IMG/VR virus record: IMGVR_UViG_3300027859_000083
Coordinates: 1 to 22,854 of that record
DNA: 22,854 nt
Source of the DNA: a virus
Strand: one strand, 5' to 3'
Shown here: piece by piece, positions 905 to 17,427 of the stretch
Position numbering within the stretch: position 1 is the stretch's first letter
How the letters are laid out: every line of letters begins with the position of its first letter
Position numbers and translations under genes: made by a program
Notes under the pieces: model-generated
Told to the model about the DNA's origin: nothing
What the model saw: the letters and a program-made list of their open reading frames with translations, nothing else
The model's database searches: none

Positions 905-1626
905 AGAGTTTTATAAGATATATAGCAGAAGGTAAGGGTGGTGCAGAAGCTGGTAAGATGGAACTTATCAAAACAGATGAAAAGAAAGCATACGAATATG
1001 CAAAGAAACTTTTTGATAAAAAAGGATTTGATATAGATAAAGAGATTCCTAAATTTTCTGCAAACTACAAAATTGCACAAAAACTTGCAAGGATGGGATT
1101 TGCACAAAGAAAAGATATGCCTGTAATCGATAACAGAGATATTAAACTATTACAAAAAAGATTAAAAGCAGGTGCAATTGATATTGCAAGACCTTTTGCA
1201 AAGAACGAAGTTCCAGATGACCCATTTCCTCAAGGACTAGACAAAGAGACAGGAAAGAAATGGGTAAATGGTGGTCTTGCAAAGAATGATGGTGAATCAT
1301 CCGATGACAAAGTAAATGTTAAAATTAAAAAGATTGCAGTAGGAAAACTAAAACCTATTCAGAGTCAAATCTATTTTGACAAATCAATTAAGAATGTATC
1401 AAAGTTTGGTGCAAAAGGAACTAAAGACTTTTCTGCATCTAAGAATAATTTTTATGTGGTATCTAAAGATGACAGAATCATAGATGGTCACCACAGATTT
1501 TTATCTGCTGTATTGGTTGACCCAGCAATAAATGTGACTGCATTAGAAATAGATTTACCAATCAAAGATTTACTACCCTTAACACTTGCATATACAGATG
1601 CAATAGGAAATGTGAGAAACAAATAA
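901..1626 (+). CDS. ParB/sulfiredoxin-like domain protein with capsid-targeting-like leader
   Basis: 241 residues. The C-terminal third (about 148-225) has the layout of a ParB N-terminal-like (ParB/Srx) domain: a conserved strand (GKLKPIQSQIYFDKS), then FYVVSKDDRIIDGHHRF at 184-200. The DGHHRF segment matches the family's G-H-x-R-nucleotide-binding motif. Family members bind or hydrolyse CTP/ATP or act as nucleases; which applies here cannot be told. The first ten residues, MKSFIRYIAE, closely resemble the T4 internal-protein capsid-targeting leader, ending in the (L/I)xE pattern cut by prohead protease. The start at 901 is set by the ATGA overlap with the upstream gene. The stop overlaps the next ATG (TAATG). 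An injected DNA- or nucleotide-acting protein is inference. Confidence 0.8.
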   Translation: MKSFIRYIAEGKGGAEAGKMELIKTDEKKAYEYAKKLFDKKGFDIDKEIPKFSANYKIAQKLARMGFAQRKDMPVIDNRDIKLLQKRLKAGAIDIARPFAKNEVPDDPFPQGLDKETGKKWVNGGLAKNDGESSDDKVNVKIKKIAVGKLKPIQSQIYFDKSIKNVSKFGAKGTKDFSASKNNFYVVSKDDRIIDGHHRFLSAVLVDPAINVTALEIDLPIKDLLPLTLAYTDAIGNVRNK

Positions 1627-2846
1627 TGGCAAGTCCAAATGTACATTTAGAACATATAGAAGATGAGATATTCAATAATGGTATTGATGGTGGTCGTGCA
1701 TCTATAAACTTTATTAGGTCACTTCGTGATATGTTATCATCTGGAAGTTCAAAAAGTACCAATGTAACTGTTAAGTGGGATGGTGCTCCAGCAATTTGGT
1801 GTGGAACTAATCCAGAGTCAGGCAACTTCTTTGTTGCGAAGAAAAGTTTATTTAGAAAAACAGGCCCTAGGTTCTATGAGTCTATCAAAGAAATAAATGA
1901 TGCAGATGATTTATCGGAAACACTTAAAGATAAGTTTAAAGCATGTTATACTAATCTAAAAGATTTAGGATTTACAGAGATACTCCAAGGTGACTTGATG
2001 TTTATCAAAGGAGATTTAGAAACACAAAAAATTAACGGCGAAAGCTATATTACCTTTGGCCCTAATACTATCACTTATGCAGTTCCTTCTACATCTAAAC
2101 TTGCATCTACTATGAGGAAAGCAAACATAGGTATTGTGTTTCATACAACATACACAGGTGACTCATTATCAAATCTTAAAGCATCATTTGGTGCAAACAT
2201 ATCTAAACTCAAGAGTTCAAGTAAAGTCTGGATGGACAATGCAGAATACAATGATGTATCTGGAACTGCAACATTAACTAAAAAAGATACAGCAGAATTA
2301 ACCAGATTAATGTCCAGAACAGGTAAGTTATTTGCAAAGATTAAAAAACCAGCCCTTGATGCATTCCTTAAAACTCAAGGTGAGATGGAAGCTGGGATGA
2401 GTTATAAAACATATCATAACAGTAAAGTGAGAGCAGGTGAAAACTTCCTACGACTAAACTACAAGAAACATGCAGATGGATACTTTCAGTTTGTTGAAGA
2501 GAAGTGGGATGCAAAGATAGATAAGCTTAAATCTGCTTCAGCAAAAAAAGTCAAAGCAAAAAACAAGAATATATACTTAACACAGATTAGAAAACAATTA
2601 TTAACACTTAAGTTGTTAGTTGAGTTTCAAGCATTAATAAACTATGCAAAGATTAAGATACTTACAAAAGTAAATAAAGCAAAACAATTAACAGATATGT
2701 TTGTTAAAAAAGATAATGGTTTTGATGTTGTTGCACCAGAAGGTTTTGTTGCAATTGACAATAATCTTGGTGGTGCAGTAAAGTTAGTAGATAGAATGGA
2801 ATTCTCACTAAATAACTTTACAGTTCAGAAAGATTGGGACAAATAA
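1626..2846 (+). CDS. Ligase-like nucleotidyltransferase (KxDG motif), DUF6267-like
   Basis: 406 residues. It resembles a conserved family of T4-like phages that I recall as DUF6267 (NVHLEHIEDEI start, then VKWDGAPAI). The sequence carries what look like ordered motifs of the covalent nucleotidyltransferase (DNA/RNA ligase, capping enzyme) superfamily. These are motif I K50-W-D-G53, a motif III-like ILQGDLMF (119-126), a motif IIIa-like IGIVFHTTY (168-176), motif IV E372-G-F-V and motif V VKLVDR (386-391), with K50 the predicted AMP-linked lysine. No OB-fold or zinc domain is evident. The substrate is unknown; a nucleic-acid end-joining or sealing role would fit the nearby nucleotidylyltransferase and P-loop kinase. 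It starts in TAATG with the ParB-like gene. The motif assignment is mine from reading, not from a profile search. Confidence 0.8.
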   Translation: MASPNVHLEHIEDEIFNNGIDGGRASINFIRSLRDMLSSGSSKSTNVTVKWDGAPAIWCGTNPESGNFFVAKKSLFRKTGPRFYESIKEINDADDLSETLKDKFKACYTNLKDLGFTEILQGDLMFIKGDLETQKINGESYITFGPNTITYAVPSTSKLASTMRKANIGIVFHTTYTGDSLSNLKASFGANISKLKSSSKVWMDNAEYNDVSGTATLTKKDTAELTRLMSRTGKLFAKIKKPALDAFLKTQGEMEAGMSYKTYHNSKVRAGENFLRLNYKKHADGYFQFVEEKWDAKIDKLKSASAKKVKAKNKNIYLTQIRKQLLTLKLLVEFQALINYAKIKILTKVNKAKQLTDMFVKKDNGFDVVAPEGFVAIDNNLGGAVKLVDRMEFSLNNFTVQKDWDK

Positions 2847-2862
2847 ATTATGGAGATATATT

Positions 2863-4074
2863 ATGGCAACTTCGTTGAAAGAGTACCAGTATCATGGTGC
2901 ATCATTTGGTAATGAGGGGTTAACCCTAAAAGATAAAGATGGACAACCTTTTATAATAAGAAAAGATATTTTAGAATGGGGTGGTTCAACAGTTTGGGAA
3001 AAATGTCATCCCACATTCATTTCACAAAAAAGAAAAGTTATACTTACATGTCCTCGTAAAGTAGGACATTCTTCTATTCGTTTTTATTTAAGTTATATGA
3101 ATAGTCATTATGATGATGACTGGACTTGGATTGAAGGAATAGATAGAGACCCACAAGAATGGTTAAGTGATGAAGATTCAGAATCTTTGTATCAAGATTT
3201 ATATTCAGACAATCCAGAAAACTCTAAAATATGTGTAGTTCCAGAACCAGATGCTTGTAGTAACACAAATCTTGAAGGTAATCAATACCATTATGGTTCT
3301 CAATTTATATCTAAAAAAGATACAGAGGAAGTAAACAAATTATTTGGAAAAGAAAATGATATCATATGGCCATTAGAATTTTCTGATAACAGTGAAAAAA
3401 TATTGAATAATGAAAGAGCATTCTTTCCACCATGGCAAAAACTAAAACCATTTTCGGATTATAAAACTTATTTAATAGTTAGAGACCCTTGGGATAGATT
3501 TATATCTGGACTAATAACAGAAATGGATAATGGTCTCATGAATCCTTGGAAGTATGATTCTATTGCAAATACAGAAAAGGGATGGGAACTTCTGTATACT
3601 GCTGTGAAAAGAATACTATTCTTTACAGAACCAGAATATCTTACATTAGGTGGTATGGATGGCCCTCAAGCAAATCATACATTTCTGTTAGGAAGACCTC
3701 TATGGAAAGGTGAATCTATGTATGATTCATATGATGTGTTAATTGACTTTAAACATGAATTAGAATTTGAATCAAATGAACAGGAAATAATGTCTGTATC
3801 TAATGATTCTTTAAAAAATAGTAAAGGTATTATTGATTCTCTTTTACATTATGGATTCATAAATCAAGAAGTTGTTGATGAATTCTATGGAAAACAACAC
3901 CATTCAATGTATGAACATACTCATATCAATGTGACACCTTATATCAGACAACATGTGATAAGTGAGTTACAGGAAGATAAAGACCTAAAAGAATGGTGGG
4001 ATAGAGCTCGTGAATTGGTTGATATTGAGTATAAACTCATAGAAAACAATAAACATAAAATCGAAAAAACATAA
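2863..4074 (+). CDS. PAPS-dependent sulfotransferase-like protein
   Basis: 403 residues. Two signatures of the sulfotransferase fold are visible. The 5'-phosphosulfate loop is VILTCPRKVGHSSIRFYL (59-76), with Lys66 and Ser70/71 in the expected places. The 3'-phosphate site is YLIVRDPWDRFISGL (203-217), with Arg207 and Ser215. The family moves sulfate from PAPS to sugars, lipids, proteins or small alcohols, and the motif style is closest to carbohydrate sulfotransferases. No signal peptide or membrane segment is seen, so cytosolic action is likely. The start has a clear Shine-Dalgarno (GGAG, 2852-2855). The insert between the two motifs (about 125 residues) is long and acidic. A phage could use it to modify a host surface glycan or a virion protein. 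Acceptor unknown. Confidence 0.8.
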   Translation: MATSLKEYQYHGASFGNEGLTLKDKDGQPFIIRKDILEWGGSTVWEKCHPTFISQKRKVILTCPRKVGHSSIRFYLSYMNSHYDDDWTWIEGIDRDPQEWLSDEDSESLYQDLYSDNPENSKICVVPEPDACSNTNLEGNQYHYGSQFISKKDTEEVNKLFGKENDIIWPLEFSDNSEKILNNERAFFPPWQKLKPFSDYKTYLIVRDPWDRFISGLITEMDNGLMNPWKYDSIANTEKGWELLYTAVKRILFFTEPEYLTLGGMDGPQANHTFLLGRPLWKGESMYDSYDVLIDFKHELEFESNEQEIMSVSNDSLKNSKGIIDSLLHYGFINQEVVDEFYGKQHHSMYEHTHINVTPYIRQHVISELQEDKDLKEWWDRARELVDIEYKLIENNKHKIEKT

Positions 4075-4082
4075 ATACTTGT

Positions 4083-4745
4083 ATGAAATCTTTCAGAGAC
4101 ATAGTAGAGGTGAAATCCAAGTCGGCAGTTTTTGCATTTGGTAGGTTCAATCCACCAACGGCTGGACATCTTAAACTTGCAATGAAAGTAAAAAGTGTCG
4201 CAGGTTTAGATGATGGATTCATCTATACAAGTCATAGTCAAGACTCAAAGAAGAATCCATTAGATTATAGAACCAAAACAAAGTTCATGAAACTCTTGTT
4301 TAAACCAGCTCGAGGAGTAACAGTTTCTACATCTAATTCTAGAACAGTATTTGATGTAGTTGTTGATTTATATAACCAAGGATACAGAAGTGTAAAGATG
4401 GTTGCTGGTTCAGATAGATTAAAAGAGTTTGAAAGTCTACTCACAAAGTACAATGGTGTGAAAGGTAGACATGGTTTCTACAACTTTAAAGATATCGAAT
4501 TGGTATCGGCAGGTGAAAGAGACCCAGATGCAGATGACATATCTGGTATGTCTGCATCTAAGATGAGAGCAATGGCTTTCGATGGTGATGAGAAAACATT
4601 TGTTAAATCATTACCAAGAACTTTTAGACAAGGAAAACAACTGTATAAGGCAGTAAGAAAGGGAATGGCAATTCGAGAAGAATTCCATCATATACCAGAG
4701 TACATGCAAAATGATATTGGAAAATACATACGAATCGCTACTTGA
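4083..4745 (+). CDS. Cytidylyltransferase-like nucleotidylyltransferase
   Basis: 220 residues. It has the HIGH-superfamily nucleotidylyltransferase layout: FGRFNPPTAGHLKL at 19-32 (the TxGH motif, Thr26-Ala-Gly-His29) and ISGMSASKMRAMA at 153-165, matching the ISxTxxR motif (here SGMSASKMR). Relatives include NMN adenylyltransferase and pantetheine-phosphate adenylyltransferase. The overall form also matches nucleotidyltransferases common in marine T4-like phages. The substrate cannot be assigned; NAD or CoA metabolism is possible, and CoA would be notable given the acyl carrier proteins at 16142-16599. The N-terminus MKSFRDIVE is a short version of the capsid-targeting-like leader and lies directly before the catalytic domain. 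The last 35 bases overlap the next gene. Confidence 0.85.
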   Translation: MKSFRDIVEVKSKSAVFAFGRFNPPTAGHLKLAMKVKSVAGLDDGFIYTSHSQDSKKNPLDYRTKTKFMKLLFKPARGVTVSTSNSRTVFDVVVDLYNQGYRSVKMVAGSDRLKEFESLLTKYNGVKGRHGFYNFKDIELVSAGERDPDADDISGMSASKMRAMAFDGDEKTFVKSLPRTFRQGKQLYKAVRKGMAIREEFHHIPEYMQNDIGKYIRIAT

Positions 4746-6141
4746 GGGAATAAACGACCCTGGCGTATTTAAAGCTGTCTTCATGGCAGGTGGGCCAGGT
4801 TCTGGAAAATCTCTTGCAGCTAAAAAATTAGGTTTCTTATCTATGGGTTTACGACCAGTAAACTCAGACTCATCTTTTGAAAATGGTCTTAAGAAAGCAG
4901 GTCTTTCACTTAAGATGCCAGAAGACGAAGAAGAACAAAGAGATGCAATCAGAGTTCATGCAAAAGCCATGACTGCAAAACGACAAGACATGTTAGTTAA
5001 AGGTCGTATAGGTCTTGTTATAGATTCTACTGCAAGAGATATAAAGAAACTACTTATACAAAAGAAATTACTAGAACAACTCGGTTACGAAACTGCAATG
5101 GTATTTGTAAATACTTCTTTAGAAACTGCATTAGACAGAAATAGAACAAGAGAAAGAAGTATACCAGATAAAATAGTACAAGATAACCATGCAAAAGTTC
5201 GTTCAAACATGGGTAAACTACAAAATGCATTTGGTCGTCCAAATTTCTTCATTATCGACAATGATGGTGATGTAAAAGATTTAGAAAAAAATACAACTAA
5301 AGTGTTTCCTAGACTACAATCATTTGTAAAAAGTTTCCCTTCTAATAAAATGGCACAATCATGGAAAAAGGCACTAACTATGAAACCTATGAAAAATATC
5401 AAACTTGCAGCTGAATATGAGAGTCCAGCAGATATGGACGATAGATTATTCAATGAAGATGCAACAACAGATGCACTAAAAGGTAAACAAGAAAGAGAAA
5501 AAGAACAACTTAAAGTAAAACACGATAGAGAAATGGATGCAGATAGAAGAAGAATAACAAGGGACAAGAATAGAGATACAGACCCATCATCTACTAATGA
5601 AGTCTCAGATGCAGTTCAAGCCACAAAAGAAAAGATTTATAAAGACCTCAAGAAGAAGAAAGATTACTTTGAGAAAGAGTATGGTGATAAAGCAAAAGAA
5701 GTCATGCATGGAACAGCAATGAATCAAGCAAAGAAAATACATAAGGTTGCAGAAGGTAGGTTTAATACTGAACTAACCAGACAACTACAACTTGAAGTAT
5801 TAACTGCAGCTCAAAGAAGAAAAATCGGAATGAGGATGAAAAGGTTTGCTAAAAAGATTCAAAAAACTAAAGAAAGAATGAAGAAAAGAATGAAAAATTC
5901 TAAACAACTTCAAACAAAAGCAAACAAACAAGCAAGAATAACCATGTTTAAAAAGATGTCTGGTGGTAAAACACCTGGCCAAGTTTCAATAGGAACTAGA
6001 ATTGCAGTAGGTAAAAAACTTGATAAAAAGAAAGGTGCAATAGCAAAACTTGCTAAAAAACTATTGCCTAAGGTTAGAAAAGCAGAACAAGAAAGACTTG
6101 CAAGATTTAGACAACAACAAAATCAGAAAAAGAAACAGTAG
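4711..6141 (+). CDS. P-loop kinase (zeta-toxin/AAA_33-like) with long basic tail
   Basis: 476 residues. The N-terminal domain (about 20-215) has Walker A GGPGSGKS (27-34), a Walker B-like LVIDSTARD (102-110) and an Arg-rich lid region (ALDRNRTRERSIPD), as in small-molecule or polynucleotide kinases and zeta-toxin-like proteins. The remaining 260 residues are a highly charged linker and a Lys/Arg-rich, helical tail (LTAAQRRKIGMRMKRFAKKI, and KKLLPKVRKAEQERLARFR near the end). I recall that tail from other marine T4-like phage proteins, and it looks fit to bind DNA. The leader MILENTYESLLE|G contains two (L/I)xE sites. The start overlaps the upstream nucleotidylyltransferase by 35 bases in another frame. 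The kinase substrate is unknown. Confidence 0.8.
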   Translation: MILENTYESLLEGINDPGVFKAVFMAGGPGSGKSLAAKKLGFLSMGLRPVNSDSSFENGLKKAGLSLKMPEDEEEQRDAIRVHAKAMTAKRQDMLVKGRIGLVIDSTARDIKKLLIQKKLLEQLGYETAMVFVNTSLETALDRNRTRERSIPDKIVQDNHAKVRSNMGKLQNAFGRPNFFIIDNDGDVKDLEKNTTKVFPRLQSFVKSFPSNKMAQSWKKALTMKPMKNIKLAAEYESPADMDDRLFNEDATTDALKGKQEREKEQLKVKHDREMDADRRRITRDKNRDTDPSSTNEVSDAVQATKEKIYKDLKKKKDYFEKEYGDKAKEVMHGTAMNQAKKIHKVAEGRFNTELTRQLQLEVLTAAQRRKIGMRMKRFAKKIQKTKERMKKRMKNSKQLQTKANKQARITMFKKMSGGKTPGQVSIGTRIAVGKKLDKKKGAIAKLAKKLLPKVRKAEQERLARFRQQQNQKKKQ

Positions 6142-13147: not shown

Positions 13148-13728
13148 ATCAAGTAGATTTAAAAGAAGGTGCAATGGGTGTAATAGATACAGTCATAGTA
13201 TTTCGTATTCTTAAAATGATGACCAGAAAATGGGAAGAGATGGATGCATACAAGTTCGGTATCATCGATGACAATGGTAAAAGAATCAAATCAAAAAAAC
13301 CCAAAACCTCAGAAGAAAAAAACTCATTCACACTACTTCACAGATTAGTATTTAATCTCAAAAGAGTTCTTGAACTACTACCATTTGGTAGGACAAGACT
13401 TGCATCTTACGCTGCATCGTTAGCACTACTCAAAGAAAATTTCAACATTGATGGAGAATATCTAGAAAGACATTTCTATCAATACCTTAAAGAAAACGAT
13501 TTAGTACTTGACTTATTAGAAGGTCATGATAATATGAATAATTTACAGAAAGGAAAAGAATATGAATTAAGACAATCAGTTTGGAACGAAGAGGACTGTA
13601 TTGGTACACGAGGTGACCAAGTACAGATGTTAGGAAGGACTGATAATGTGATGGGAGTAGATATTTACAGAGTCTACAACATAACACAAGACCAGTCCAT
13701 GTTAATTACAGGACATGATGTTAAATGA
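13144..13728 (+). CDS. Conserved T4-like phage protein of unknown function
   Basis: 194 residues. A conserved start GAMGVIDTVIVFRILKMMTR and a central LLHRLVFNLKRVLELLPFGR followed by LASYAASLALLKE resemble a family that I recall beside the previous gene in many marine T4-like phages. No enzyme motif is seen. The centre is helical, and the C-terminal 50 residues look beta-prone and end in LITGHDVK. The start at 13144 is in an ATGA overlap, and the gene ends in another ATGA overlap with the diiron gene. This three-gene coupling (unknown, unknown, diiron protein) suggests joint expression. A structural role is possible but unsupported by the sequence alone. Confidence 0.8.
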   Translation: MNQVDLKEGAMGVIDTVIVFRILKMMTRKWEEMDAYKFGIIDDNGKRIKSKKPKTSEEKNSFTLLHRLVFNLKRVLELLPFGRTRLASYAASLALLKENFNIDGEYLERHFYQYLKENDLVLDLLEGHDNMNNLQKGKEYELRQSVWNEEDCIGTRGDQVQMLGRTDNVMGVDIYRVYNITQDQSMLITGHDVK

Positions 13729-14831
13729 ATGGCTTTATGAAAATTACAAAAGTACAAAACCCACCAAAAGATATTGCACATTTCAGTGGTGCAACCTATC
13801 CAGTGGAAGACGAGGGAATCAATCCAGAGGATGTAATTGAAATATTTAATACACCTTTGACTGGTTCTTACAATTGGGATTACACAGTTCAAGATGATAG
13901 AATCAAAAAACTATATGAACTAGGTAAGGAAAAAGAATGGAATGTAGAAAAAGATATAAACTGGGATGTTCCTAATCCAGATGAAGATGAAACTGCATTC
14001 ATGTTTTTTAATGAACAGTGGAAAAATCACAAAGACTACAAACACTTATCTATAGAACAAAGAAAGGAGTTTGTTAAAGATTTAAATAATTGGACACTTG
14101 CACAACTATTACATGGTGAACAAGGTGCATTGTTAGTTGCATCTCAACTTACAAGTTGTGCTCCAACATTTAATGCAAAACTATATGCAGCTTCACAAAC
14201 TTTTGATGAGGCAAGACATGTAGAAGCATTCAACAAGTATATACAAACAAGAGTTGGTAGGATGTTTCCTATCGGTACACAGTTAAAAGCATTATTAGAT
14301 AAAATACTTACAGATGAAAGATGGGATTTAAAATTTATCGGAATGCAAATTATTATTGAAGGTCTTGCACTTGCAATCTTCAATACTATAAAACAAACAA
14401 CAACAGACCCAGTTCTCAGAGGAATACTTACTCTTGTTATTAGAGACGAAGCAAGACATGTAACTTTTGGTGTTAACTATCTAGAAAGTTATGTGCAAAC
14501 ACTAACTCTTCAAGAGAAAGAAGAAAGAGAAGACTTTTGTTTAGAGGCTTGTACAGTATTAAGAAATAGATTTAAACAGTATGATGTTTGGGAAAAGTGG
14601 GGATTCGATGTTGAATATACAGATGAGTACATTACTAAAAATGCACTGAATATTCAGTTCCAAGAACTACTATTTACTAGAATTATGCCCAATCTTAAGA
14701 AAGTTGGACTACTTCCAGATAGACTTTTGCATAAATATGATATATTAGGACTTTCTAAGTTTTCACTTGGAGATTCAGATTACGAAACATCATGGGAAGA
14801 ACTAAGTAAACCATTGGAAATAGTTAGATGA
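13725..14831 (+). CDS. Ferritin-like diiron protein (R2-like/oxygenase family)
   Basis: 368 residues. A full set of six carboxylate/histidine diiron ligands is visible in a four-helix arrangement. They are Glu132 (HGEQGAL), Glu162 and His165 (FDEARHVEAF), Glu212 (IIIEGLALA), and Glu242 and His245 (IRDEARHVTFG). The twin DEARH motifs and spacing are those of ferritin-like R2/oxidase/N-oxygenase proteins that activate oxygen. It is not NrdB, which is separately encoded at 21783 and has the D/ExxH/ExxH pattern with its radical tyrosine. The substrate is unknown; relatives oxidise fatty acids, aldehydes or arylamines, some bound to carrier proteins, which is suggestive with acyl carrier proteins 1.3 kb downstream. 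It starts in ATGA overlap and ends four bases into the next gene. Confidence 0.85.
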   Translation: MNGFMKITKVQNPPKDIAHFSGATYPVEDEGINPEDVIEIFNTPLTGSYNWDYTVQDDRIKKLYELGKEKEWNVEKDINWDVPNPDEDETAFMFFNEQWKNHKDYKHLSIEQRKEFVKDLNNWTLAQLLHGEQGALLVASQLTSCAPTFNAKLYAASQTFDEARHVEAFNKYIQTRVGRMFPIGTQLKALLDKILTDERWDLKFIGMQIIIEGLALAIFNTIKQTTTDPVLRGILTLVIRDEARHVTFGVNYLESYVQTLTLQEKEEREDFCLEACTVLRNRFKQYDVWEKWGFDVEYTDEYITKNALNIQFQELLFTRIMPNLKKVGLLPDRLLHKYDILGLSKFSLGDSDYETSWEELSKPLEIVR

Positions 14832-15910: not shown

Positions 15911-16142
15911 AGTCTGGGACTGGATTAAATGTGCATGGTTATGGTTCATAAATTTATTCAGAGAAAGATATGAGGTTACTGTATCATTCAATAAAGAATG
16001 GGGTGATGCAGATGATAGGACTTATGTTGCAAAAAAGATTCTAGTGCAGAAAGAAAAACATTTAAAATTTAGAAACGATGATAATGAAGTTGTCGAATAT
16101 AGAAGTGCAGCTGGACTGAACTATATAATAAGGGAGTTATAA
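15891..16142 (+). CDS. Small Trp-rich membrane-associated protein of unknown function
   Basis: I choose the GTG at 15891, giving 83 residues. It has a good Shine-Dalgarno (GGAG, 15882-15885) and overlaps the preceding gene by only 20 bases; an in-frame GTG at 15786 would force a 125-base overlap. The N-terminus is Trp-rich and hydrophobic or amphipathic (KVWDWIKCAWLWFINLF, about 7-23) followed by positive RERYEV, as in a membrane anchor with a cytosolic tail. The rest is beta-prone: VTVSFNKEWGDADDRTYVAK, then LNYIIREL at the end. I recall similar small proteins in cyanophages and pelagiphages, with no known function. It overlaps the acyl carrier protein start (TAATG), so coupled translation is likely. 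It lacks the length and helices of a typical holin. Confidence 0.75.
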   Translation: MQKWITKVWDWIKCAWLWFINLFRERYEVTVSFNKEWGDADDRTYVAKKILVQKEKHLKFRNDDNEVVEYRSAAGLNYIIREL

Positions 16143-16357
16143 TGTTAGAAAAAATATTATCTGATAGGTTAAATGTAGATGTATCTACAATTACAGATGA
16201 GTCACATATTGTTGATGACTTAGGTGCTGATTCATTATCTGTAGTTGAAGTAATCATGGATATCGAATCTCAGTTTGATGTTGAAATACCAGATGAAGAT
16301 GCAGAGAACCTTTTTACAGTTGCAGAAATTAAACAATGGATTGAGGATAATTCATAA
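16142..16357 (+). CDS. Acyl carrier protein
   Basis: 71 residues, near the usual 75-80 of type II acyl carrier proteins. It carries the classic LGADSLSVVEVIMDIESQFD core, with Ser31 of DSL as the phosphopantetheine site, then EIPDEDAENLFTVAEIKQWI as expected for helices II-IV, and an acidic composition. A 4'-phosphopantetheinyl transferase, from host or elsewhere in the phage, would be needed to load it. No ketosynthase, transacylase or acyl-ACP synthetase is seen in the window. Candidate partners are the diiron protein (13725), the ATP-grasp enzyme (10400) and the degenerate ACP encoded next. It is coupled by TAATG to the genes on both sides. The acyl load is unknown. Confidence 0.92.
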   Translation: MLEKILSDRLNVDVSTITDESHIVDDLGADSLSVVEVIMDIESQFDVEIPDEDAENLFTVAEIKQWIEDNS

Positions 16358-16599
16358 TGTCGTATGAGTTAACACATGAAGAAGAAAATAAAAAGATATT
16401 ACATTGGATATCTAAAACAGTTGCATCGAAAAAAGATATTAGAGCAAAAGAACTTGACCATGATGCAACTTTTGGTGAATTAGGAGTAGATGGTTATTTG
16501 ATAAGACAGGAAGTAAATAAGTTCTTTAATGTTGAAGTACCAGACAATCTAAATACAACTAATAAATTAAGAGATTATTTTAAGGATTGGCCACTATGA
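16357..16599 (+). CDS. Degenerate acyl-carrier-like protein lacking the attachment serine
   Basis: 80 residues. It aligns by eye with an acyl carrier protein: a long first helix (ENKKILHWISKTVASKKDI), then ATFGELGVDGYLIRQEVNKF (37-56) in the position of the LGADSL core, then FNVEVPDNL and a C-terminal helix. The invariant Ser is replaced by Gly46 (DGY for DSL), so it cannot carry phosphopantetheine. It probably keeps the fold and acts as a partner or regulator, perhaps pairing with the true carrier encoded just upstream, with which it is coupled by TAATG. Divergence between the two is high, so recent duplication is not evident. It could also be an unrelated small helical protein, but the order of elements argues for the ACP fold. 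Confidence 0.75.
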   Translation: MSYELTHEEENKKILHWISKTVASKKDIRAKELDHDATFGELGVDGYLIRQEVNKFFNVEVPDNLNTTNKLRDYFKDWPL

Positions 16600-16991
16600 A
16601 TCAAATATTAATAGGAGTAATCTTTGTCATGGGAGTCGGTGGATTTTTCCTATGGGAAGATTATCAAGGTGTCAAACAAGAAAACATGGCACTTACAGTT
16701 GCAGTAGCAGAACAGAAACAAACTATTACTGCAATAAAAGAATCATATGAAAAACAAGGACAGTCTTTACAAAATATGATGAGAAAGAATGCACAGATAG
16801 AACAAGAAATGAATTCTTATCTGGACATTTTTAGGAGACATAATTTAAACCAACTTGCAGTTGCAAAGCCAGGAATGATTGAGAAAAGAGTCAATGATTC
16901 TACAAAGCAAGTTTTTGAGAGTATAGAAAATGATAGCAAAGAATTGGACAGTTTGGACGACCCTACTAGCAATATCAATCCTAACAATTAG
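16596..16991 (+). CDS. Rz-like inner-membrane spanin (i-spanin)
   Basis: 131 residues from the ATG at 16596, chosen because it forms an ATGA overlap with the previous gene; an in-frame TTG at 16587 is less likely. The N-terminus is a single signal-anchor segment (ILIGVIFVMGVGGFFLW, 4-20) without a cleavage site. It is followed by a periplasmic helical, Gln/Glu/Lys-rich coiled-coil region to about 110 and a segment (LNQLAVAKPGMIEKRVND) that I recall from marine phage Rz-like proteins. With the overlapping lipoprotein gene it makes a spanin pair that fuses inner and outer membranes at lysis. No holin or endolysin is in the window. The pair implies a Gram-negative host. Confidence 0.75.
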   Translation: MNQILIGVIFVMGVGGFFLWEDYQGVKQENMALTVAVAEQKQTITAIKESYEKQGQSLQNMMRKNAQIEQEMNSYLDIFRRHNLNQLAVAKPGMIEKRVNDSTKQVFESIENDSKELDSLDDPTSNINPNN

Positions 16992-17427
16992 TGGTTGTGC
17001 ATCTAGACAGGTTGAGGTAATATCCAAACCTATTGAAATTGATATAATACAACCTACAATGCCTAGGAACATTGATTTGAAAGAACCAAGGTTCTATGTG
17101 GTATCAGAGGCAAAAATAACTAATCCATGTGTCAAAAACGAAGAAGGAAAAAGAGACTGCTCACTAGGCAAAGAAAATCCAGAGTGGCCAGAAGGTTATA
17201 CTTATCTAGACAGATTCTTGGATGATATGAAAAAGATGAATTCTGGAGATGTTGTATTCGTTGCAATGTCGGTCAGTGATTATGAACTTATGTCATATAA
17301 CATGCAAGAACTACGAAGATACATTAGAGAAGTACAAGAAGTTGTAGTTTACTATAGAAATGTGACCATCAAAAACCCAGATGGAACTACCACAGAAGCA
17401 CAGGCTGCAGTCATAGAAAAACCATAA
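16930..17427 (+). CDS. Rz1-like outer-membrane lipoprotein spanin (o-spanin)
   Basis: 165 residues. It has a clear lipoprotein signal: a short N-terminus with Lys4, a hydrophobic core TVWTTLLAISILTIS (7-21) and lipobox ISGC, with Cys23 the lipidated residue. The mature part has the helical segment YNMQELRRYIREVQEVVVYY and a conserved-looking SGDVVFVAMSVSDYELM before it. The gene begins in another frame inside the last 62 bases of the i-spanin gene, the overlapping layout typical of Rz/Rz1 pairs. It is larger than lambda Rz1 (60 residues), but larger o-spanins are known in other phages. Two cysteines (Cys67, Cys76) lie in the mature domain. Residue Ser24 is not used here: position +2 is Ala, so outer-membrane sorting is expected. 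Confidence 0.7.
   Translation: MIAKNWTVWTTLLAISILTISGCASRQVEVISKPIEIDIIQPTMPRNIDLKEPRFYVVSEAKITNPCVKNEEGKRDCSLGKENPEWPEGYTYLDRFLDDMKKMNSGDVVFVAMSVSDYELMSYNMQELRRYIREVQEVVVYYRNVTIKNPDGTTTEAQAAVIEKP

Follow-up and report, generated by a model that had tools for sequence, protein, structure and literature searches.

What a sulfotransferase-like gene does on a phage genome, and on which acceptor its product might act, is the question raised by the locus described here. The gene lies on a virus contig of 22,854 bases, the whole of which is referred to below as the window. The original prediction was that of a sulfotransferase carried by the phage, with both PAPS-binding motifs intact and a long acidic insert between them, and it held that such enzymes are uncommon in phages.

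Gene and Neighborhood

The open reading frame is as predicted, and its surroundings are the same-strand genes of a T4-like phage (Table 1), with primase and ribonucleotide reductase genes further along on the strand of the sulfotransferase-like gene. The nearest phage relatives of the primase are in cyanophages, and the phage records nearest to the upstream DUF6267 protein are those of Methylophilales phage Melnitz (50.4% identity), Phage C48C1 (41.8%), and Pelagibacter phage HTVC008M (38.6%), a distribution that does not fix the host. Elsewhere in the window, two overlapping ORFs at 16587-17427 may represent an inner-/outer-membrane spanin pair, judging by eye, and the stretch 16142-16599 comprises an acyl carrier protein (ACP) gene (PF00550) and, behind it, a second small ORF that by eye resembles a carrier protein lacking the attachment serine and has a weak match to PEPCK as its sole Pfam match. 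The protein encoded at 20780-21790 matches phrog_2954 (labeled ferrochelatase, 7.8e-34) and no Pfam family at E 1, and its by-eye likeness to an iron-dependent oxygenase suggests that the ferrochelatase label may be wrong. A related 146-kb phage record (G014) has Pfam matches to curli genes (CsgG, CsgF, and curlin repeats), to CHASE2 and guanylate cyclase domains, to alternative oxidase, and to NifU; curli pore genes are known from Melnitz and pelagimyophages, as described in a passage of an earlier report (PMC9004378).

Table 1. Positions of the sulfotransferase-like gene, its parts, its neighbors, and the fused protein of related records (window positions unless a locus is named).
Feature	Position	Strand	Basis
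Sulfotransferase-like gene, 403 aa	2863..4074	+	ORF from ATG to TAA; sub-threshold PF03567 match; 24-protein family; fold comparison
5'-PSB-like loop, residues 57-76, invariant Lys66	3031..3090	+	Alignment
Long variable insert between motifs, residues 77-202	3091..3468	+	Composition; conservation low over about 101-180
3'-PB-like stretch, residues 203-224, invariant Arg207 and Ser215	3469..3534	+	Alignment; profile match to cyanophage sulfotransferases
DUF6267 protein, upstream neighbor, left slot edge	1626..2846	+	PF19782, E 5.7e-96; slot survey
Cytidylyltransferase-like protein, downstream neighbor, right slot edge	4083..4745	+	PF01467, 3.8e-5; phrog_3041, 4.2e-56; slot survey
Kinase-like gene	4711-6141	Same strand	
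Fused APS-kinase-like/NMN-adenylyltransferase-like protein	L018 1492-2280; L122 1489-2292; L123 961-1749	L123: -	

Family Assignment and Cofactor Motifs

A Pfam search with the window protein returned a single family, Sulfotransfer_2 (PF03567), with an E-value of 0.0062 and 17.1 bits, below the cut-off of 22. The same family is the sole one to recur in the family alignment (the window protein plus 23 others), where it is matched by 14 of the 24 members at E 1 or better (best E 2.4e-5) and is absent in the other 10; among individual loci, L054 and L043 score 14.7 and 14.8 bits, both likewise below 22, and L046 and L055 have no match. Sulfotransfer_3 (PF13469) was found neither for the window protein nor in any of the eight related records that carry orthologues. 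No NCBIfam model matched the window protein, a PDB sequence search with it gave nothing at E 1, and the only matches of a PDB profile search, mineralocorticoid receptor chains (E 0.65-0.81), were dismissed as chance. By profile the protein lies nearest to Sulfotransfer_2, below the cut-off, and it may represent a divergent enzyme branch near this family. Relatives were found on 28 IMG/VR contigs, and tblastn against 50,697 phage records gave no match with the window protein (E 0.01) or with its distant relative L014 (E 1). A pattern scan of GTDB genome contigs yielded 44 stretches with no relatives among them, and therefore no cellular source was found.

Members of the PAPS sulfotransferase superfamily share a 5'-PSB loop containing a lysine and a 3'-PB containing an arginine and a serine. 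The corresponding stretches of the window protein are residues 59-76 (VILTCPRKVGHSSIRFYL) and 203-217 (YLIVRDPWDRFISGL), and Lys66, Gly68, Ser70, Arg73, Arg207, Arg212, and Ser215 are identical in all 24 aligned relatives, even where overall identity to the window protein is as low as 32%; they belong to a total of 54 alignment positions that are invariant throughout. The motifs are therefore intact as predicted, and the Lys, Arg, and Ser whose loss would have counted against a sulfotransferase (Lys66, Arg207, and Ser215) are retained without exception. The two motif patterns did not occur together in any of 20,000 shuffles of the protein, and among 347 frames (stop-to-stop, at least 80 aa) in overlapping pieces of the related 146-kb contig they occurred together only in the orthologue; both patterns were composed after the sequence had been seen, so that this test is post hoc and motif conservation is the stronger evidence. 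The insert between the motifs is indeed long (126 residues) and contains 21.4% D/E vs. 8.7% K/R with a computed pI of 4.2, but its acidity is not special, because the whole protein is acidic (17.4% D/E, pI 4.9) and the same region in the 23 other members contains 17.6-23.7% D/E.

Predicted Fold

The sulfotransferase assignment is also consistent with the predicted structure. A first AlphaFold2 model, built from 13 alignment rows, had a pLDDT of 73.3 and placed sulfotransferases in fold rows 1-23, and a second model from 24 rows reached a pLDDT of 84.9 and a pTM of 0.87. For the fold comparison, 431 PDB chains were preselected by Foldseek and then aligned, and among the best 50 of these the first 47 rows for the second model were sulfotransferases or retinol dehydratase of the same superfamily (three rows), followed by two adenylate kinases (Z 3.5 and 3.4) and a PALS1 chain (Z 3.3). 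The best row, 8chs, aligned over 192 residues with Z 6.8 and an rmsd of 4.5, which, for a predicted model and with Z below 8, is no proof. Foldseek alone gave nothing at E 0.001, either in the PDB, where a glutathione S-transferase was the top row (first model only), or in BFVD, where the best match was a phage "sulfotransferase domain-containing protein" (E 9.6e-3). The absence of Sulfotransfer_2 structures such as HS2ST from the best 50 of the 431 chains excludes nothing. In four of the five NDST1 rows, the offset at the alignment start puts Lys66 on Lys614 of NDST1, provided that the first eleven residues are gap-free, and Lys66 therefore probably lies on this residue in the model; Lys614 is placed in the 5'-PSB in the relevant passage of a published account (PMC3733922).

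Two other readings of the protein bear on these results. It could be a sulfotransferase-fold protein with other chemistry, or one that only binds a nucleotide, as the weak sequence scores, fold Z-scores below 8, a catalytic base that is not placed, and the presence among the fold rows of retinol dehydratase, a fold member with a different activity, would all allow. Such a reading appears unlikely, since both cofactor motifs are invariant in all 24 proteins while the remainder falls to 32% identity and adenylate kinases reach only Z 3.5; neither in Pfam nor in the fold comparison did another P-loop family fit better than sulfotransferase. Alternatively, the enzyme may sulfate a host or virion protein in the manner of the tyrosylprotein sulfotransferases, which also appear in the fold comparison (Z 4.2 and 4.0). 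This would be a distinctly improbable role, as the glycan-type NDST1 and 3-O-sulfotransferases rank above them (Z 5.8-6.8), though the differences are small, and a target motif is not known. Taken together, the motifs, the sub-threshold Pfam matches, and the predicted fold support the prediction of a phage-borne sulfotransferase, and the protein is most likely a PAPS sulfotransferase of a divergent type, its two motifs separated by a long insert.

A Fixed Slot Behind DUF6267

A survey of 58 loci, collected by searching with the DUF6267 protein and using 13 family members as sulfotransferase queries, showed the sulfotransferase-like gene directly behind DUF6267 in all 27 loci whose DUF6267 protein is at least 65% identical to that of the window, whereas it was found directly behind DUF6267 in none of the 30 loci where this identity is 51% or lower, at least three of which (L069, L070, and L085) end too near to tell; one further locus (L087) is truncated by the end of its contig. 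In the three cultured relatives, Melnitz, C48C1, and HTVC008M, other and shorter hypothetical ORFs of about 120-170 aa follow DUF6267. The contrast between near and distant loci indicates that, as far as the contigs show, a single uncultured clade carries the gene stably, and the idea of a recent or passing guest was dropped after the survey.

Divergence and Exchange of Alleles

Within its fixed slot, the gene is highly variable. Over 325 pairs of 26 loci, in three of which the two proteins are identical, the sulfotransferase-like protein has a median identity of.49, compared with.71 in DUF6267,.89 in the cytidylyltransferase, and.83 in the kinase, of which the first 200 residues were used. 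When 21 genes of the window were compared across up to 11 records, the sulfotransferase-like protein had the lowest mean identity (.58), the next lowest being those of the ACP (.64, in 7 records) and an ATP-grasp-like protein (.67). Nucleotide identity scanned in 100-base bins shifts abruptly at the gene ends. For example, records G005 and G014 are 95-100% identical in DUF6267, 56-84% inside the gene, and 94-97% behind it, and G004 and G019 are similarly 88-100, 54-82, and 81-95% identical in these parts. The pattern is reversed between the window and G009, where identity before the gene is 53-82% in 10 of 12 bins and 97-99% in the other two, and inside the gene is 97-100%. Such shifts point to allele exchange, which can arise by recombination in the conserved flanks, and to our knowledge there is no way for mutation alone to yield them. 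Diverged alleles are thus exchanged in one slot; the fixed slot, the lowest conservation in the window, and the identity jumps at the gene borders are described here for the first time. At the same time, dN/dS is 0.19-0.72 and below 1 in 13 of 13 pairs, one of which has only 2 differences, and the protein is therefore kept by purifying selection.

The swapping of very different versions hints at a target that varies among hosts. The gene is not alone in being exchanged, as strong differences between G005 and G014 are likewise seen in the ATP-grasp-like protein (57%) and the AurF-like protein (74%), and exchange by itself is no pointer to surface glycans. These same neighbors raise the possibility that the enzyme sulfates a metabolite or carrier-bound intermediate in a small biosynthetic route together with the products of the ATP-grasp-like, AurF-like, and ACP genes. 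All of them share one strand and fall within a 14-kb span. The ACP (PF00550, 6.6e-13) and the AurF-like diiron oxygenase at 13725-14831 (PF11583, 2.3e-10) have Pfam matches, and the ATP-grasp-like protein at 10400-11629 matches models of D-Ala ligase and purD with scores well short of the cut-offs. Pairwise identities of the sulfotransferase-like protein are correlated with the corresponding values for the ATP-grasp-like protein (r.48) and the AurF-like protein (r.61). However, unrelated genes correlate as closely (DUF7207, r.56; kinase, r.46; g15786, r.55). Record G001 (114 kb), which carries the sulfotransferase, gave no ATP-grasp-like or AurF-like match, and record G015 (130 kb) gave no ATP-grasp-like match, although both records may be incomplete; the AurF-like protein was seen in 3 of 13 related records, and many of the 13 are so short that its absence from them says little. 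The unspecific correlation and the missing partners weaken the metabolite route, which seems rather doubtful, and the same comparisons gave no support for a specific coupling to the three genes.

Acceptor and Sulfate Donor

A virion glycan had been among the suggested acceptors, and a look for glycosyltransferases elsewhere in the genome had been proposed. A search of 11 related records (19-146 kb, several of them short fragments) yielded no PF00535 glycosyltransferase in any of them, with all 14 control genomes positive in the same search, and for 107 of the 147 ORFs of G014 there was no glycosyltransferase among the Pfam families listed (25 of 35, 25 of 26, and 25 of 45). The lack of PF00535 makes a phage-built glycan less likely and a host-made acceptor likelier, so that the remaining candidates are glycans of the host, metabolites, and proteins, and diverged alleles in a fixed slot would fit an acceptor that differs between hosts.

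The reading that we tentatively favor, and hold to be somewhat short of probable, is that of a PAPS-dependent sulfotransferase near Sulfotransfer_2 that would act inside the cell on a host-made acceptor varying between hosts. In analogy to known sulfotransferases, the loop with Lys66 would bind the 5'-phosphosulfate, and the 3'-phosphate would be bound by Arg207 and Ser215, while an invariant acidic residue (Asp85 or Asp86) or His272 is a candidate activator of the acceptor. The acceptor pocket may be shaped by the variable regions, chiefly the long insert, and the acceptor itself would most likely be a surface-glycan precursor or another host-specific small molecule. An acceptor of this kind would explain why strongly different alleles are exchanged in one slot.

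A possible link to donor supply is a fused protein of 262-267 aa in the three longest related records (G001, G014, and G015), the first half of which resembles an APS kinase and the second half an NMN adenylyltransferase. A profile of the three proteins matches APS kinases (2yvu, 8.9e-9) and NMN adenylyltransferases (1f9a, 2.5e-5) in the PDB, and APS_kinase (PF01583, cut-off 21.1) is matched with 35.1 bits in G015, 28.8 in G001, and 20.5 in G014 (21.1 together with its neighbors); of the 11 records searched, the remaining 8 gave no match above this threshold. The match spans about 80-90 residues, other P-loop models fit about as well, and the G001 protein scores only 21.4 bits against NCBIfam apsK (cut-off 138.7); given these three points, the fused protein is not claimed as a PAPS synthase. 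Relatives occur in five phage records, in the inspected stretches of two of which no sulfotransferase is annotated, and from its sequence the protein could serve PAPS or NAD metabolism. A more far-reaching and quite speculative scheme would have the slot as an exchangeable host-remodeling locus, whose alleles, traded among phages of one lineage, would sulfate surface glycans specific to host types during infection and thereby shut out rival phages or free progeny, with the fused protein helping to supply the donor.

Comparison With Known Sulfotransferases

Sulfotransferases have been reported from other marine viruses. Sulfotransfer_3 (PF13469) proteins were described in two metagenomic OM43-phage genomes, and these are also of a marine-phage sulfotransferase type but belong to another Pfam family than the proteins of the window clade; the passage concerned calls the function of phage sulfotransferases unclear (PMC10580990). 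Sulfotransferases are also named among the auxiliary genes of estuarine viruses in part of a further study (PMC12285232), and among the open-access papers searched none was found that joins Sulfotransfer_2 with phage or pelagimyophage with sulfotransferase. With one slot in a marine clade, selected and yet exchanged as diverged alleles, the window subfamily offers a way into this function. If the alleles differ in acceptor, the difference would be measurable in vitro and would reveal what such phages sulfate and why.

Among proteins of known structure, NDST1 and the 3-O-sulfotransferases give the best fold rows, with 191-201 residues aligned at 8-15% identity to the window protein, which differs from them in its long insert between the motifs. 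The closest counterparts in phages are the cyanophage proteins annotated as galactose-3-O-sulfotransferase in P-SSM7 (YP_004324849.1), S-T4 (YP_009810820.1), and Sf-CH5 (XYM58138.1), which likewise come from marine T4-like phages and are of sulfotransferase type. A profile built from them matched the window family with 84.4% probability, only over 30 columns at the 3'-PB, vs. 0.1% for another P-loop family as a control. Unlike the window protein, the P-SSM7 protein scores above the Sulfotransfer_2 cut-off of 22 (26.9 bits), and the cyanophage proteins are shorter (196-241 vs. 403 aa), with 55 residues from the loop Arg20 to the 3'-PB Arg75 in P-SSM7 vs. 141 from Lys66 to Arg207. Their loop reads IPRT, whereas most members of the window family have PRKVG or PRKAG, and their genes lie at other genome places, for example, behind gp5 in P-SSM7. 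The original prediction is thus partly supported: it was right in kind, its statement of rarity needs qualification, since annotated sulfotransferases are present in P-SSM7, S-T4, Sf-CH5, and other marine T4-like cyanophages, and it did not touch on the exchange of alleles in a fixed slot. Sulfotransferases in phages were already known, and the gene of the window represents a divergent subfamily that is rare among them.
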